Positions 4,220 to 29,699 of a stretch of 29,699 nucleotides of DNA are shown here, piece after piece. Position numbers and translations under genes: made by a program. The first letter of the stretch is position 1. Every line of letters starts with the position of its first letter. Source of the DNA: a virus; the IMG/VR virus record IMGVR_UViG_3300050025_000047, positions 1 through 29,699 of that record; one strand, given 5' to 3'. The notes beneath the pieces were generated by a model. That model was not told the DNA's origin. It did not search any database and saw only the letters and a list, made by a program, of their open reading frames with translations.

Positions 4220-5001
4220 TGTCATCTAATCCTATACATTTTGGTGGTAGCATGGGAAAGCCTGGGAGCTGGCTTTCTGCGAGTGGTCGTCTTAGTCCTC
4301 GTCCTGCGCCGGGAAAGACCTTTAAAGAGCAACAACGTTACACTCTAATGGCGCAGATGGAAAACGCCATGATTCCTGAAGCAGCTCAAGCTGCGATGCT
4401 ATGCATCAGCAAACACCGTCTTCAACATCTAAAACAAAAACCCGACTACCAAATCGTACGTCTTGCTATCACTCACGGTATCATCATAGATCATGCTTCA
4501 AAGTCCGATATTATTCGTGAGCAGCGTAAAGAGATGTTGACTATGCTTCTACCTGAAGCATGGCAGAGTTTGGCGAATGAAATCCGAACGAAAGCAACTA
4601 CACTTGCCGAGCGAAAGCACAAAGCTGCTATCGTTCAAGATTTGCTGGACCGCGAGGGAACGTTCGCCAAAGTTTCTAGGACAGAGATCAAACCTGTGGA
4701 TGCGTTTGATTTTGAGAGAGCTGACGAAGCGTCACGGAGTATTATTTCTGCTATTCGTGGCGTTGCTCCAGCTCCTCGTGCCGCCGGACCCATGAATCCG
4801 CGAGATGCTGTAACAGCGTTCTTAGGAGAGCACACGGCGGCTGCCATAGAAGCAAACAGAGAGTTCTCGAATAGTCATACTCTAAGCGCCGTGGATCAGC
4901 AACAGGCGCTTAAAGCGTTGGAGCGGGCTGTGTTAGAAGACGCTGACACCGGCGCGGCGTTGCTTGAGGCTATGCCGCCGACGACAGAGAGTGTGCAATG
5001 A
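4219..5001 (+). CDS. Hypothetical 260-aa protein; possible small terminase
   Basis: 260 aa, mostly helical, with a Gly/Pro/Ser-rich N-terminus (residues 1-33), a central helical core with basic stretches (KHRLQHLKQKPDYQIVRLAITHG; LAERKHKAAIVQDLLDREG) and an acidic C-terminus. Small terminase subunits are helical DNA-binding proteins encoded shortly before TerL, and this is the only gene of fitting size upstream of TerL. I see no clear helix-turn-helix, so the assignment rests on position and composition. Coupled to both neighbours (TAATG upstream, ATGA downstream). It may instead be an early morphogenesis protein. Confidence 0.4.
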   Translation: MSSNPIHFGGSMGKPGSWLSASGRLSPRPAPGKTFKEQQRYTLMAQMENAMIPEAAQAAMLCISKHRLQHLKQKPDYQIVRLAITHGIIIDHASKSDIIREQRKEMLTMLLPEAWQSLANEIRTKATTLAERKHKAAIVQDLLDREGTFAKVSRTEIKPVDAFDFERADEASRSIISAIRGVAPAPRAAGPMNPRDAVTAFLGEHTAAAIEANREFSNSHTLSAVDQQQALKALERAVLEDADTGAALLEAMPPTTESVQ

Positions 5002-5441
5002 TGAAGATTCAAAAAGAAGTCTTGACAGACGTCTTGTTTGCTCATTTTGATGATGTTAATTTTGATGAGCATCATAAGATGGATGAAGAAGAGTGGCGAC
5101 AGATGCTTTCAAATGGCTACGTCGCTATCTACACAGCACGAGATGAACAGAACGATCTCGCCGCTGTGCTTGTACTAAAGTCTTCCTCTGTTAACACAGG
5201 AATGTGGTACTTTTATTCTGTGGCAGTAAACGAACAGTATCGCAAGATGGGGCTTGGGACTAGACTCTTTAAGATTGCTACAGAGAGCGAGATTTCTACT
5301 GGCATAATTAACTCTCACTGTCATGTAGACAACGTCGCCTCGATCAACTTTCATCAGTCTCTCGGTTTCAAAGTCGTGCAATACGTACCTGATTTCTATG
5401 GCGATTTTCAAGACGCTATCATGTGGGAGCGCCGGCGATGA
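4998..5441 (+). CDS. GNAT-family N-acetyltransferase
   Basis: 147 aa. GNAT enzymes move an acetyl group from acetyl-CoA to an amine. The acetyl-CoA pyrophosphate loop is at residues 80-87, QYRKMGLG (Q/RxxGxG/A), preceded by the beta-4 strand YFYSVAVNE. Motif B follows as HVDNVASINFHQSLGFKVV (109-127), the RimI-type VxxDNxxxIxxYxxxGF with His in place of the usual Tyr. Length is typical of a single-domain GNAT. Its ATG overlaps the previous TGA; an alternative ATG is the next codon. Being inside the packaging/structural operon it is expressed with late genes, so a virion protein, host protein or small amine may be the substrate; none can be named. Confidence 0.85.
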   Translation: MMKIQKEVLTDVLFAHFDDVNFDEHHKMDEEEWRQMLSNGYVAIYTARDEQNDLAAVLVLKSSSVNTGMWYFYSVAVNEQYRKMGLGTRLFKIATESEISTGIINSHCHVDNVASINFHQSLGFKVVQYVPDFYGDFQDAIMWERRR

Positions 5442-15305: not shown

Positions 15306-18242
15306 GTGGGGCATGTCAAAACAGAGGAACTCTCAAACGGTAACTATAGTCTTGAGATTACCTATGGTGGAAAAGAAGCTCCCTTCGGCGGCGTGGATTC
15401 GTCTGCGCCGCCAGCTTACATTGATCCACGGTGTTTTACACAGTGCGATGGATTTATAGTCGTAGACAACAAGTTGGTTGCGGCGTCTCTTGTTCCAGTA
15501 CAGATTCCAGTTCTCTGGAACAGCGTTGCTGGCGTGACGCTGATTGGGTTTGGAAATTTTTATAGCTCTAGGTATGGTACGCTAAACTACGCTCTTGGGT
15601 ATATCGCAATCGCCGTAGCGGGTTCTCCTACCGGCGTGCAGTATACGTTTTACATGACTTCTTGGATTCCTGGAAATACGATAACGTCCTATAATGATAC
15701 GCTTCAGTATACGCCGTTCAACAGTGCCACACCTGCTATAGCAGCGTCAATCACACTTCAACTTCAGACTACTAGTACTGCAACGCCAGGCACAGGAGCG
15801 GTGGTAAATATTACTGCCTTGTCTAGTCTTGGTAGTAATTCTGTAGGAACACCGCCTAGTCCTTACGGTTGGTATCTTACAGGTATTCTACAAACTGTAA
15901 CTATTTCTGGTGGAGTTGGTTATGCTGCCGGTTCTACTTATTGGGTTGTGCAGGGAACCAATGTCACTGGACAGATAGTCGTGACCTCTATTGGTGGTGG
16001 CGGTTCGATCACAGGTTTTACTATTGTTCCAGACTCGTTTCAGACAACTGGAGTGCTTAGTAACTCTGGTCAAGTTGTTACCTGCGCCGGTTGGGGTTAT
16101 TCTCTTGGTTCTGCTACGCTGACATATACCACACTCAGTAACGTAGTGTTGCAAGTGAGTGGTCCGAGTGGTACGAATACTTACACCGTGCCTTCTAATG
16201 GTGTCATTGGTGTCACACCAACGCTTGCAAGTTCAGGAGCGGCTTTTGCTATAGGTTTAATTGCTTCTGGAGGAGTTATTTATGGAAAGCCAAATTTTGT
16301 AAACACAGGTGCACTTTATCAGCTTCCTCAGATTCTAGCAGGAGGTACTGGTTATAATGTCGGAGAGTTGTATAACGTACAAGAAGTCTATGCAAGTGGT
16401 AGTGGCTCTGTTGTTAATGTTGGTGACGGTTCAGCACAAGTTTTGATTACTTCTGTTGGTGTGGGTGGCTCGGTTACTGGAATAGAATTGGTTGCCTCTG
16501 GGACAGATGCTTCTGGCTATCTAGTTGGCGGTTCGCATATTCCAATTCAGTATTACTGTACATTAGTTCCTGCTGCTATACCTACACTTATCACAGGAGC
16601 AGCAATTGCGAATTATATTCTTAATACAATGGCTTCTGCGATAAACAGTGGTGGTACAGATTCTGCCAACGGCGCTGCTGATGCAAATGTTACTGCCGCG
16701 GTTAACATTGGTTCTAGTTCTCTAATTCTTACAGCCATTGTTCCTGGTGTTATAGGAAACAGTATCTCTGTGCAAGATTTTTCTACTATTACAGGTGGGA
16801 ATCTTTATTACTACTATTTCCCTTGTCGTACACTTACCTATCTTACAGGTGGCTCAGACGGTGCTGGAAGTGGCACTGTACTTTCTACCCTGCTTCCAGC
16901 GCAAGCTTCGATCACAGCGGTAGGTGGAACACTCTACATAGGTAATATTGGACCTGCGATTATCAAATATGGCGGTCCTGGTGCTTTCGCAGTTTCCACT
17001 ACGTATCAAGGTGTGCGTATACTTAGAAAGTTCGCCGGCTCTCTGATTGGGCTTGGTCTTATTCCTGCGCCGGGGACGATTGTAGCTTCTACAGATATGA
17101 TCTTTGCTTGGACTACGGCAGGAAAGCTTGATAACTGGAATCCTCTGGATCTTTCTGGTAACATCACCGGCGCTGGTTTTACACAACTTGCTGACATAGC
17201 TGACTATCTCACAAGTTTGATTGTCACAAGTGGTACAGCGTTTATCATTCGTTCAGAAGGAATCAGTTACGCTACTGCGACAGGCAATGCGACATTACCT
17301 TTTTCTTTTGCTCACATCGGCCTCGGCGATGAAGGAGAAGGAGCGCAGGTTTCAAGTCTTGTATGTCAATATGATCAGACTGGAGCTTACGTCGGTAATT
17401 CAGATGTTTATCAAATCTCCTCTTCTATCTCTGCAATCGGTGCGAAAATAAAAGCCTTGCTTTTTCAAGCGCTTGCTTTAGGTAACTCTTTATTACTTAG
17501 TGCAAGCACTTGCTCAGTATACATAGGCGGTGATACCTTTGTTCTTGTGAATTTCCTGACTCCGGCTGTCGTACCCTCGCAAGGTCTAGGACTTCAAAGA
17601 ATAACTAAGGTAAACATCTTTGCCTATAATACAAATAACGCTTCCTGGGTTACGTTTACTTATCCGGTAATCATCCCAAATACTCTTACACGACCTGTAC
17701 TTACGACAGAGTTTCTTGGAGTTTTTGCTTCTAGTAATACTTCAGCAGGAGCTAATAACTATAATCAAAGTCTTTCTGTTGTAGGCATACAACTTGAAGC
17801 CAGTTCGTTGCATGGTTCAACTATTGCTCCGCCACAGTTTTTTGCTTTGCAAGAAGGTTTGACGAATATAAATGCTATCTCTCAAGCAAGTAGTGTGACG
17901 TTTGCACAAGAGGAACTTGCTTTTGGGAGAGATATAACAATCGATGCGTTGTATGTTTCACTGATAGGAAACTTTTCTGAGAATGTACAAGTAACTTTTA
18001 GTTTCAGCGGTGTGGTATTTGCTGTAGTGATTCTTTCAGCAGCTCAGTTTAACACATTGAACAGTAATCCTATCGAACTTCAGATTTTTCCAACAACCGT
18101 AAATTCTTCTGGAGCTTTTACCGTGCATGCTCCACAACTTCAGATTGTTGTCTCAGGACTTCCTGATAACGGGACTGCACAACTTCGGATTATTAAAGTA
18201 GCATGGTTCGGTTCATTTGATCCAGCACAGAGGCCAGTATAA
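15306..18242 (+). CDS. Large tail nozzle/tube-like protein with beta-rich insertions
   Basis: 978 aa with a GTG start. The N-terminus (PPAYIDPRCFTQCDGFIVVDNKLVAAS, 36-61) and the second half (MIFAWTTAGKLDNWNPLDLSG; LIVTSGTAFIIRSEGISYATATGNATLPFSFAHIGLGDEG) resemble nozzle proteins of podoviruses, where a surface reading Y..S..G....W.P is followed by a propeller-like domain. Between them are GxGYxxG modules (about 203-240 and 347-395) and an Ile/Ala-rich module (433-488) ending in PGVIGNSISV; these look like inserted carbohydrate- or protein-binding units. Its stop overlaps the next start (TAATG). Role at the tail tip is inferred. Confidence 0.5.
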   Translation: MGHVKTEELSNGNYSLEITYGGKEAPFGGVDSSAPPAYIDPRCFTQCDGFIVVDNKLVAASLVPVQIPVLWNSVAGVTLIGFGNFYSSRYGTLNYALGYIAIAVAGSPTGVQYTFYMTSWIPGNTITSYNDTLQYTPFNSATPAIAASITLQLQTTSTATPGTGAVVNITALSSLGSNSVGTPPSPYGWYLTGILQTVTISGGVGYAAGSTYWVVQGTNVTGQIVVTSIGGGGSITGFTIVPDSFQTTGVLSNSGQVVTCAGWGYSLGSATLTYTTLSNVVLQVSGPSGTNTYTVPSNGVIGVTPTLASSGAAFAIGLIASGGVIYGKPNFVNTGALYQLPQILAGGTGYNVGELYNVQEVYASGSGSVVNVGDGSAQVLITSVGVGGSVTGIELVASGTDASGYLVGGSHIPIQYYCTLVPAAIPTLITGAAIANYILNTMASAINSGGTDSANGAADANVTAAVNIGSSSLILTAIVPGVIGNSISVQDFSTITGGNLYYYYFPCRTLTYLTGGSDGAGSGTVLSTLLPAQASITAVGGTLYIGNIGPAIIKYGGPGAFAVSTTYQGVRILRKFAGSLIGLGLIPAPGTIVASTDMIFAWTTAGKLDNWNPLDLSGNITGAGFTQLADIADYLTSLIVTSGTAFIIRSEGISYATATGNATLPFSFAHIGLGDEGEGAQVSSLVCQYDQTGAYVGNSDVYQISSSISAIGAKIKALLFQALALGNSLLLSASTCSVYIGGDTFVLVNFLTPAVVPSQGLGLQRITKVNIFAYNTNNASWVTFTYPVIIPNTLTRPVLTTEFLGVFASSNTSAGANNYNQSLSVVGIQLEASSLHGSTIAPPQFFALQEGLTNINAISQASSVTFAQEELAFGRDITIDALYVSLIGNFSENVQVTFSFSGVVFAVVILSAAQFNTLNSNPIELQIFPTTVNSSGAFTVHAPQLQIVVSGLPDNGTAQLRIIKVAWFGSFDPAQRPV

Positions 18243-26407: not shown

Positions 26408-26776
26408 ATGCCTATTACACGTACTAACTTTGATCTAGGGGATCAGGAAATTCCCCTAGATGCTTTCCAAGAAATCAAAGAGCGACAAGAATGTGATCCT
26501 ATTCCACAGGGTATATCTATTATCCGAGGATGGGGTTCTGGTTTTCCAAAACACGTTCTTATTGTCAGAGTAGGAGATAGGAAACTCTACATCAAAATTC
26601 CTCTCGATGGAGAGAATATTTCCGTAGAGTATGCTGATTTTGGTTTTTGGAGAGGTCAGTATAAAAGAGTAAAACTTCCTAAACCTTCTCTGGTCTATCT
26701 GATCCGTGAATTAATCCATGTTAAGTGGGTATTTTTCTGGAAGAAAATGTATTACAAAGTAGCTTTTGGAGGTTAG
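26408..26776 (+). CDS. Hypothetical 122-aa basic protein
   Basis: 122 aa from the ATG at 26408, which has AAAAGGAGCAGG at proper distance; an upstream in-frame ATG (26390) lies before this site and is less likely. The middle is beta-like (HVLIVRVGDRKLYIKIPLDGENISVEYADFGF) and the C-terminus is basic, aromatic and hydrophobic (LVYLIRELIHVKWVFFWKKMYYKVAFGG), possibly membrane-associated. The stop is 1 nt before the ATP-grasp ATG, so the pair is probably coupled and may work together. Confidence 0.55.
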   Translation: MPITRTNFDLGDQEIPLDAFQEIKERQECDPIPQGISIIRGWGSGFPKHVLIVRVGDRKLYIKIPLDGENISVEYADFGFWRGQYKRVKLPKPSLVYLIRELIHVKWVFFWKKMYYKVAFGG

Positions 26777-26777
26777 C

Positions 26778-28085
26778 ATGAAGATAGCGATGTCCTCGTA
26801 CACCGGCATGGGAGCATGGTTCGTCCTGCGTCTTATGGCAGAAGGCCATGATGTAGATTACTACTTGTCCAAATCTGACTACGAGGATGTTCTTGGGGGA
26901 CTTATTCCGTCCCCCAAGAAGCTATCGCTAGATCATCGCAGAACGGTGGCTGGATATGGGTATCCGTCGTATAAGGGTTATGATCTTTCGTTATTCGATC
27001 TCACTGGCAAAGCTAAACAAGCAGATGCTTCGAGAGCAGAAACGCCGACGTTAGGAGATGGAACGTTTGAACACATACTTGAGGATGACAGAGAAGCTGG
27101 ACTTAAGGCTATGAAAGACTGTGGTATCAACGTACCGCCGTATACCAGATTTAACACACCCACTGAGGCTAAGGCTTTTTTACGTAAGAATGACCGACCG
27201 TATGTATTTAAACCTTTTACAGAAGGAGGCCAAACTCAGGACACCGCCACAACCTACGTTGCTAAAAGCGCGGCTGATCTGGTTGAGTTTATCGACACTT
27301 TGTGGGATGCTGCTAAGCATGCTCCTTTTATCTTACAGGAGTTTGTTAAGGGACAGGAGATTGGGATAGAAGGATTTTTTAATGGGACGGACTTTTTTCT
27401 TCTGACAGGGACATTAGAGGAGAAAAAGTTTATGAACGACAACAAAGGACCGAATACAGGGTGTTCAGGGAATTTGATTTTTGCGTTGTCCGAGGAGTCG
27501 AGGATTTATAAGGAGGGATTAAAGAAAGCGATTCCGTTTTTACAGGCGATGAACTTTAGAGGTATCATTGATCTTAACTCTATTGTTACAGAGGATAAGA
27601 TCTATGCCTTGGAGTGGACGCCGAGGTTTGGTTATCTGTGCTGTCCTACGATAGCTACGCTGTATGGTCACGGTTATGGTGACTTGCTCCAGAAAATCGC
27701 TTCTGGTCGTACTCCTGAAGTTAAATGGACGGCGCCGTTTGGAACCTCGGTCACACTATCTATTCCGCCGTATCCGACAGAGCTTCGACTACCTAAAGCC
27801 AAGGACGTACCAATCGAAGGACTTGATCCAGAGGATCTTGAGCAACTTGCAAGTACATACATGTTTGATGTAATGCTTGCAAAGAACAAGAAGAAACTTA
27901 TCACAAGCGGCAACTACGGCTACATCTGTGCCCCGATCGGTATTGGCTCCTCTATTGAAGAAGCTTCTATGCGCTGCGACAATGCTGTGAAAAAGATTCA
28001 CATCCCAAACATGCAGTATCGTACTGACATTAACAAATCAACTCTCAAGCGGTATCAGTTTCTTGAGACTAACTGCTGGCTCTAG
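26778..28085 (+). CDS. ATP-grasp ligase, PurD-like (phosphoribosylamine-glycine ligase fold)
   Basis: 435 aa from the ATG at 26778 (GGAGG 5 nt upstream; in-frame TTG four codons earlier is unlikely). ATP-grasp enzymes join a carboxylate to an amine via an acyl phosphate. Seen: a nucleotide-like N-terminal fold (MKIAMSSYTGMGAW), ATP-binding Lys in YVFKPFTEGG (K145), the second ATP segment ILQEFVKGQEIGIEGFF (185-201), TGCSG near 227-231 and the metal/ATP motif ALEWTPRFG (277-285). PurD normally reads EFNxRFG, so the usual metal-binding Asn is Thr here (T281). No other purine gene is near; the substrate may be a protein or cell-wall amine. Confidence 0.75.
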   Translation: MKIAMSSYTGMGAWFVLRLMAEGHDVDYYLSKSDYEDVLGGLIPSPKKLSLDHRRTVAGYGYPSYKGYDLSLFDLTGKAKQADASRAETPTLGDGTFEHILEDDREAGLKAMKDCGINVPPYTRFNTPTEAKAFLRKNDRPYVFKPFTEGGQTQDTATTYVAKSAADLVEFIDTLWDAAKHAPFILQEFVKGQEIGIEGFFNGTDFFLLTGTLEEKKFMNDNKGPNTGCSGNLIFALSEESRIYKEGLKKAIPFLQAMNFRGIIDLNSIVTEDKIYALEWTPRFGYLCCPTIATLYGHGYGDLLQKIASGRTPEVKWTAPFGTSVTLSIPPYPTELRLPKAKDVPIEGLDPEDLEQLASTYMFDVMLAKNKKKLITSGNYGYICAPIGIGSSIEEASMRCDNAVKKIHIPNMQYRTDINKSTLKRYQFLETNCWL

Positions 28086-28094
28086 GAGGGCCGT

Positions 28095-29699
28095 ATGAAA
28101 AAACTACTTGCTTTGCTAGGAACGCTGCTCTGTATGGGCAGCGTTTCTTTTGCTCAAACTACCACAGTCTCAGGAACTGTAATTGATAGCGATGGTACAA
28201 CGTGGACGAACGGCACGATCTCAGCACAGTTTGTACCTAATCCTTCGCAGCAGAACATCAGCATCTACAACATTAACGGAGTTCCTCTTTCGCAAGCTGT
28301 AACGACTCAAGGACCGATCTCTCTTGGTGGCGCTGGAACGTTTTCGTTTAGTGTGTATCAAAATGCCGCTATCACACCTAGTGGAAGCACATGGCAGTAT
28401 ACAATCTGTCCTAATGCTTCTACGAAATGTGGTGTTTTTACTATAGCGGCTGTCGGTAGCACTCAGAGTCTTACTTCTATGATACCTGCGATTATCCCAG
28501 CGCCAAGGTTTTTAGCTGTAGCTGGAGCTTATGGATATGCTGATATAGAGACAATCAATCAGCAGCCTGTGGGTGGGACATATTGGAATACGAGTGCTTC
28601 GTGTCAGAAGTATTATAACAGCTTAAGCTGGAACTGTATAGGTACAGTTGGAGGCGCTGTGATTGCTGTTACTGCCTCGGCACCTATCGTTTCTAGCGGT
28701 GGCACAACACCTAACATCACTTGTACGACCGCAGGCACTTCAACTACCGGATGTATCAGTTCAACTGACTGGAACACGTTTAACAACAAACAAGTCGCCC
28801 TTGGTTTTACGCCATACAATGCTACAAATCCTGCTGGCTATATTACCAATTCTGTGACTACGCTTCCAAGTCTTACAATCTCTAATACTCAAGTCTCTGG
28901 ACTTGGAACAGCTTCTACACATCCATACACAGATTTCGAGGCGGCGCTTGGAAACCCTGCATCTACAGGTTACGTGCTTTCTTCTACTACTCTCGGTGTT
29001 AGAAGTTGGGTGCCGCAGAATGTAGGTATTTCTTCAATTAACGGCGGTACCGGAGCTTATACGTTTAACGGTCCTGTGGTAAGTTGTGTTGGTACAACTT
29101 GTACGTTCACTGATGTTAATCCTGGCACAGTTACAACCGTTGGGCTTGTTATGCCGTCGATCTTCACTGTCATAAACAGTCCTGTGACAACAACAGGCGC
29201 TTTGACAGCTTCTTTGAATAGTCAACAACAGAATCTTTTTCTTGCTTCTCCAAATGGTTCAAGCGGTGTTCCTACGTTTCGTGCTATTGTAGCAGCAGAT
29301 GTACCAATTTTGAATCAGAATACTACAGGCACAGCAGCTAATGTGACTGGCACAGTTCTTGTAGCAAACGGCGGCACCGGCGCATCGACAGCGGCAGGCG
29401 CGTGGAACAACATCACGGGGGGAACGGACAATGGAGCGTCCGGCGGAGCCAATGTTAAAATCGTCCCTGGCTCGTTTACCGCGCCTTCCGGGGTGTACGC
29501 TGGCACTAGTGTTACCAACGGAATTCCGGGTATTATCGGGGGTGGATTCGCCGCCGGGGGGACTAGCGGCAGTGTGATCCAGAATAAGAATGCGGCGGGC
29601 TGCGCAAGCACGGAATATGCAGCATTGAACGATCTGACAACCGGAGCGCACGATCACTATTCAAGCTTCGGAATCAACAGTTCTATCTTTAGTTGCCCA
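28095..29699 (+). CDS. Tail fibre with Sec signal peptide (3' end cut by window)
   Basis: 535 codons visible, no stop before the edge. Residues 1-20 are a clear signal peptide (MKKLLALLGTLLCMGSVSFA, cleavage after SFA). C13 is not in a lipobox. The mature N-terminus (TVSGTVIDSDG...) is beta-rich, then ISSTDWNTFNNKQ (221-233), an ADVPILNQNTTGTAANVTGTVLVANGGTGAS-type collar (401-431) and NKN.A..ASTEYAALND.....HYSSFGINSS (498-530), all familiar from phage tail fibres. Cysteines pair by spacing: 105/112, 170/181, 210/220, 331/336, with 503 and 534 further on. AGGAGGG precedes the ATG 9 nt after the ligase stop. Confidence 0.75.
   Translation, partial: MKKLLALLGTLLCMGSVSFAQTTTVSGTVIDSDGTTWTNGTISAQFVPNPSQQNISIYNINGVPLSQAVTTQGPISLGGAGTFSFSVYQNAAITPSGSTWQYTICPNASTKCGVFTIAAVGSTQSLTSMIPAIIPAPRFLAVAGAYGYADIETINQQPVGGTYWNTSASCQKYYNSLSWNCIGTVGGAVIAVTASAPIVSSGGTTPNITCTTAGTSTTGCISSTDWNTFNNKQVALGFTPYNATNPAGYITNSVTTLPSLTISNTQVSGLGTASTHPYTDFEAALGNPASTGYVLSSTTLGVRSWVPQNVGISSINGGTGAYTFNGPVVSCVGTTCTFTDVNPGTVTTVGLVMPSIFTVINSPVTTTGALTASLNSQQQNLFLASPNGSSGVPTFRAIVAADVPILNQNTTGTAANVTGTVLVANGGTGASTAAGAWNNITGGTDNGASGGANVKIVPGSFTAPSGVYAGTSVTNGIPGIIGGGFAAGGTSGSVIQNKNAAGCASTEYAALNDLTTGAHDHYSSFGINSSIFSCP

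Follow-up and report, generated by a model that had tools for sequence, protein, structure and literature searches.

The spikes of tailed phages are assumed to be folded and assembled within the reducing cytoplasm of their host, and we know of no tailed phage in which a spike has been shown to be added after export. Their attachment may nevertheless come late, as with the tailspike of P22, which joins otherwise complete particles as the last component and does so also in a test tube. Adsorption-type proteins with a signal peptide and disulphides are found in the filamentous phages, whose pIII protein belongs to virions that assemble in the inner membrane; other exported products of phages are superinfection-exclusion proteins such as Llp of T5, which are small and leave the cytoplasm during infection. 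Phages of Porphyromonas gingivalis, moreover, contain five genes of unknown function with host-style Sec signals and Gln at position +1 (PMC10367356). Our search of the literature, with most subscription papers outside its coverage, found no paper on a tailed-phage spike having a functional signal.

The gene considered here lies at the right-hand end of a stretch of 29,699 nucleotides, hereafter called the window, which constitutes the entire IMG/VR virus record IMGVR_UViG_3300050025_000047. The features that the analysis rests upon are the following.

15306-18242: gene of a 978-aa protein, probably a tail hub with inserted domains; ends conserved, middle highly variable (about 549-978 aa in relatives)
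26766..28085, + strand: ATP-grasp (GARS-like) gene directly 5' of the spike gene (Pfam GARS_A, 1.3e-12; synteny)
28084..28090, + strand: Shine-Dalgarno sequence AGGAGGG, 4 nt 5' of the ATG and overlapping the stop of the preceding gene
28095..29699, + strand: 5' part of the signal-bearing tail fibre/spike gene, from an ATG through 535 codons (residues 1-535 of 1397), open at the contig end and continuing in L007:2-2716
28095..28154, + strand: predicted Sec/SPase-I signal peptide, residues 1-20, with cleavage predicted between SFA and QTT, leaving Gln at +1; retained in homologues with an intact N-terminus
28155..28649, + strand: N-terminal β-sandwich domain, residues 21-185, predicted from alignments, an AF2 model (pLDDT 72) and weak Foldseek matches
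28407..28430, + strand: Cys pair C105/C112, flanking a predicted β-hairpin; both lost in L087, present in all others
28602..28637, + strand: Cys pair C170/C181, flanking a predicted β-hairpin; both lost in L086
28650..29384, + strand: fibre repeat region (motif TASAPIVSSGGTTPNI...STDWNTFNNKQ), common to many phage fibres
28722..28754, + strand: Cys pair C210/C220, from the Cys positions in the sequence
29085..29102, + strand: Cys pair C331/C336, from the Cys positions in the sequence
29385..29699, + strand: start of the variable C-terminal module, containing C503/C534; different in sequence in the near-identical L082

The sequence-only reading of this DNA had delimited a tail fibre gene at 28095-29699, which is correct even if the gene is cut by the end of the contig. 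The last 127 bases of the window coincide exactly with the first 127 bases of another contig, L007 (IMGVR_UViG_3300050025_000045), an overlap of the type that is produced by an assembly-graph junction, and the frame of the spike runs on across it to a stop at L007:2716. The complete protein thus has 1397 residues and 30 mature cysteines, equivalent to 15 pairs. The join is supported by the minus-strand genes lying 3' of the spike in L007, which are identical in kind to those of the complete relative L083. The spike would belong to a tailed phage of roughly 49 kb.

Searches with the N-terminal domain retrieved related contigs (L082, L083, L084, L085, L086, L087, L088 and the pair L116/L117), and three of the genomes, which measure about 48.4-49.0 kb and carry direct terminal repeats of 123-127 bp, are probably complete. 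Along these genomes the genes run terminase, portal-position protein, capsid, putative tail hub, putative internal proteins, ATP-grasp and fibre. Both in the window and in five relatives, the spike gene closes the structural operon and comes later than the putative internal proteins; an equivalent Shine-Dalgarno sequence lies 5' of the fibre in L082, L083, L084, L085 and L088. Fibre length in the family ranges from 476 to 1922 aa. In G002, G003 and G004 a second fibre with the same N-terminal domain adjoins the first, and G005 has a further signal-bearing protein beside its fibre. Apart from the spike, the only large fibre-like protein in the complete genomes is the hub-like protein, that is, the 978-aa product in the window. 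We considered the latter as an alternative fibre and rejected it, since its variation is confined to the middle, with conservation at either end, as would suit a tail hub better.

Other genes in these phages deserve mention in their own right. The ATP-grasp gene is the fixed upstream neighbour of the spike in every relative reaching that far, and a distant homologue is present in phage MW202796. A claim based on this distant phage, namely that conventional fibres were replaced by the spike, was abandoned, as no more than the capsid and ATP-grasp can be recognised as common to it and the family. Near the terminase, the window encodes a GNAT-type acetyltransferase (4998-5441) that has no homologue among the called ORFs of the relatives, while a protein of 93 aa encoded in G003 has a Sec signal exposing Gln at +1 (L106:11339-11620).

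The N-terminus of the spike, MKKLLALLGTLLCMGSVSFA followed by Q, has Lys at positions 2 and 3, an uncharged hydrophobic core and S-F-A/Q at residues 18-21, by the rules applied for Sec signals. Among the ORFs of the window with at least 100 aa, it was the sole one flagged in a rule-based scan, and a separate scan requiring a Shine-Dalgarno sequence returned it together with one weak antisense ORF. The signal peptide had been claimed from the window alone, with the comparison of related phages proposed as a check, and this comparison bears it out: all N-domain relatives having an intact start keep a signal with Gln at +1, for example MKKVLVFLACLFFAVSCYA, MRKILLVCSFLFLVSVAAA, MKKILLLSFISLLSSIGVA, MNLRKLATYLSVVLATLILFCSPVQG, MKKELLKIFLLLIGFTILCSIGNC, MKKFLLLFFLFSAGSIAA and MLKKFACFFFLFATITAA, each then followed by Gln. 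A basic n-region, a hydrophobic core and a small residue at -1 were found in the 15 signals submitted to the rule-based test, with position -3 less canonical in a few. Besides all the signals of the family, those of two further groups of spikes have Gln at +1. A comparison of the window with L083 shows only 42% identity in the signal, against 81% for the next 120 residues. The core of the signal thus drifts faster than the mature domain and yet the signal is kept, which is the pattern of evolution of functional signal peptides.

Up to residue 535, the mature protein contains the cysteines C105/112, C170/181, C210/220, C331/336 and C503/534, with spacings of 7, 11, 10, 5 and 31, exactly the five or so pairs, 5-31 residues apart, that had been pointed out in the window; one additional Cys lies inside the signal peptide. 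Cysteines make up 2.2% of the spike versus 0-0.4% in the majority of the phage's virion proteins, and their median content is 0.16% in the signal-less fibres that have the repeat motif in common (n=61). Their local pairing in the spike is significant in a permutation test (p = 1e-4), as in most fibres tested versus 0/17 controls. Gain and loss of cysteines in the family go by whole pairs, as in the losses in L086 and L087 and in the extra pair, C53/C58, acquired by one paralogue in G003. For the window and G001-G005 with neighbouring copies the mature Cys counts are 30, 16, 12, 8, 32, 40, 18, 12, 12 and 10; for G009 they are 16 and 12 in two fibres, which were reconstructed across their common repeat before counting, and 22 in a spike; for the group of L128 they are 15, 16 and 4. 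The number is even in 15 of the 16 complete signal-bearing fibres (binomial P about 3e-4, uncorrected for relatedness), the exception being one homologous spike with 15, compared with 17 of the 49 comparison ORFs of these phages having at least 4 Cys. Two other viral fibre ORFs (L046 and L068), lying on contigs not recognised as belonging to the family of the spike, have clear Sec signals with Gln at +1 and almost no Cys; hence disulphides are no necessary consequence of export.

Export accompanied by disulphide formation, as predicted in the sequence-only reading, is very probable for the spike, and it is the best reading because both the signal and the pairing of cysteines are conserved across the family. 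Could the hydrophobic N-terminus be instead a cytoplasmic segment, docking the protein to the tail or tethering it to a membrane, in the course of ordinary assembly? Fibres normally attach via their N-terminus, and some cysteines are possible in cytoplasmic fibres. We consider this improbable, given that the signals retain their basic residues, their core and a small residue at -1, and invariably have Gln at +1; the sequence of the core drifts freely. Even numbers of locally paired cysteines, furthermore, would be unexpected under the reducing conditions of the cytoplasm, and the remaining proteins of these phages do not show them.

Searches of the fibre against Pfam, PHROG and PDB sequences found no family. 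In particular, the N-terminal domain reaches gathering level with no family in Pfam or PHROG and has no solved homologue found by PDB sequence search, and the collar domain named in the sequence-only reading was not recovered in the fibre, with no Pfam match up to E 0.1 and no PHROG match. In Foldseek, the AF2 model of the N-terminal domain (pLDDT 72) matched prealbumin-like folds, the DEV collar protein and podovirus tail-fibre proteins, all of them weakly. Structure prediction had been suggested as a way to see whether paired cysteines are adjacent, and in this model C105/C112 and C170/C181 each flank a β-hairpin. The repeat region is a widespread one, with 467 matching stretches in viral contigs at tblastn E<=1e-3; its middle repeats match many viral fibre-like ORFs as well as annotated tail fibres of cultured phages. 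Fibres that have only the middle repeat in common (n=61) resemble ordinary fibres at their N-termini, without signal or richness in cysteines. The claim of a signal-bearing, cysteine-paired fibre was to fall if homologues lacked both features while keeping the collar domain. The outcome of this comparison is mixed and does not refute it: the repeat-only fibres do lack both, but every N-domain homologue with an intact N-terminus retains its signal, and the pairs persist in nearly all. The C-terminal continuation in L007 has no database match and, by eye, reads as repetitive and β-helix-like; a single-sequence AF2 model of the C-terminal module (pLDDT 37) was too poor for use. Elsewhere in the family, profile searches found a CHB_HEX_C_1 domain in the L087 fibre and a sub-threshold GDSL esterase match in one paralogue.

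The tip of the spike has been exchanged. In L082, a genome 89-91% identical to the window outside the fibre, the fibre DNA is 99-100% identical up to about residue 330 and 97-98% up to about residue 400, until a break at about residue 430 leads into a different tip. A near-identical fibre start followed by a different tip is, in comparisons of sequences, the usual signature of receptor-binding proteins. A further case is the 99.6-kb contig G009 (L116, loci L120-L124), which combines a phage of the family, with a capsid 96% identical to that of the window, and what appears to be a second, tRNA-rich and low-GC phage that is apparently unrelated to the family. The junction is a 1.1-kb stretch, 99.6% identical, lying inside the fibre genes of both phages, and a module of 361 aa is common to the two. 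Signals and paired cysteines are present in both joined fibres, as well as in another spike encoded by the second phage. G009 is either a hybrid created by assembly or a cointegrate; in the former case, too, both phages should carry the module. Relatives of the spike of the second phage are found on further contigs, including L128, beside other signal-bearing fibres and putative tail genes. The tRNA-rich part of G009 also encodes a nuclease-like protein (L116:10930-11751) that resembles, by eye, DNA/RNA non-specific endonucleases and has a Sec signal with Gln at +1.

These observations bear upon the fate of the exported protein, for which three possibilities had been named: a fibre assembled outside the cytoplasm, an adhesin left on the host surface or a blocker of superinfection. 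The position of the gene, the swapping of modules and the lack of a second clear fibre gene speak for the first, and the genomic context supports the original assignment as a fibre or spike. The spike follows internal virion proteins, swaps its C-terminal modules and is the sole fibre-like protein besides the probable hub, and hence is read as a receptor-binding protein; that it is exported, disulphide-bonded and joined to tails at lysis we regard as the likeliest course, at about even odds. It is also conceivable, though on the whole unlikely, that the exported spike never joins virions and, whether it stays on or near the surface of the host or is set free, occupies or degrades the receptor so as to block superinfection, protect progeny from debris or act as a free depolymerase. 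Signal and disulphides would then be just as real, adjacent signal-bearing paralogues in G002, G003 and G004 would suit enzymes with different modules, and the weak GDSL match mentioned above would fit. However, the family would be left without a recognisable receptor-binding protein except the hub-like one, long repeat shafts with swapped tips are typical of virion fibres, and the gene is situated in the structural operon, with similar genes on L128 lying beside putative tail genes.

Which bacteria are the hosts? Patterns of the N-terminal domain gave zero matches, and no prophage, in 84,980 species genomes of bacteria and archaea, and the nearest phages and plasmids of terminase, capsid and ATP-grasp were uninformative on the host. 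Gln at +1 after cleavage is the Q-rule of Bacteroidetes (PMC5837995), from which a host in Bacteroidota was initially deduced. This reading was withdrawn on the evidence of a control, plasmid pACIX901 of Granulicella tundricola (L112-L115), in which about 21 of 28 hand-called signals have Gln at +1, and of the usage of Shine-Dalgarno-like sites, locatable for 64-96% of long ORFs in these phages, which is unsuited to Bacteroidetes. Acidobacteriota would fit best as the host group on these sequence features. As a side observation, the signals of pACIX901 suggest that a Q-rule like that of Bacteroidetes may exist in Acidobacteriota.

The style of the signal, being that of acidobacterial exported proteins, could also suggest an adhesin of lysogenic conversion or a surface gene captured from the host, in either case playing no part in the lytic cycle. 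The N-domain of one member has a marginal, non-significant match to CarboxypepD_reg (E 0.27), which is frequent in the TonB receptors of hosts. We hold this origin to be very improbable: the bacterial and archaeal genomes just mentioned contain no match, the gene belongs to the core set of the phage family and lies within the virion operon, and no integrase was noted in a non-exhaustive look at the genes.

Returning to the receptor-binding spike, the mechanism that we infer for its export, oxidation and incorporation into virions would run as follows. The protein would be made as a Sec precursor, from which signal peptidase I would remove 20 residues to expose Gln at +1. The mature chain would fold in the periplasm, where disulphides, about 15 in all and short in range, could link neighbouring cysteines along the shaft. 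The constant part, presumably attaching to the tail, would be the N-terminal β-sandwich, and the repeats with the exchangeable C-terminal module, which appears β-helix-like here and weakly esterase-like or lectin-like in relatives, would recognise or digest the host surface. Since tails would be built in the cytoplasm, the exported spike would meet and join the finished tails when membranes open at lysis, and the late attachment of the P22 tailspike makes such a step plausible. More generally, phages of one bacterial group might finish their virions outside the cytoplasm, with spikes that leave by Sec, are hardened by disulphides in the periplasm and do not join the tails until lysis, while unrelated phages of the same hosts share and exchange such spikes; for this broader proposal we judge the chances to be slightly short of even.

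The fibre itself is of a known kind; the conserved Sec signal with paired cysteines, a combination that, from the sequences, apparently occurs on tailed-phage spikes in several lineages, is the new part within the literature searched. A conserved signal together with about 15 Cys pairs implies either an extracytoplasmic last step of virion assembly or fibre-like proteins secreted for another purpose, and either outcome would be new to our knowledge and is directly testable. In practical terms, signal-bearing fibres should not be discarded as host genes by annotation pipelines, nor should such spikes be made in the cytoplasm in expression work.

How does the spike compare with known systems? 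It resembles the tailspikes of podoviruses, such as P22 gp9 and the esterase spikes of G7C/Moo19 type (PMC11654681), in its late position in the structural operon, its constant N-terminus and its exchangeable, probably carbohydrate-active C-terminal module, which is weakly esterase-like in one paralogue, but differs from them by its Sec signal and paired cysteines, having no sequence match to known spikes and an N-terminal domain unrelated to theirs by sequence. As in T7-like phages, its gene occupies the tail-fibre position after the internal virion proteins. With the P. gingivalis phage genes (PMC10367356) it shares host-style Sec signals exposing Gln at +1, whereas the carriers here are fibre or spike genes of the structural operon with many paired cysteines. 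In contrast to the T5 Llp type of exclusion proteins, it has 1397 residues with fibre repeats and swapped tips. Finally, it is like pIII of filamentous phages in being a putative adsorption protein with a signal and predicted disulphides, even if it belongs to a phage whose terminase and capsid genes mark it as tailed and whose heads and tails should form in the cytoplasm.
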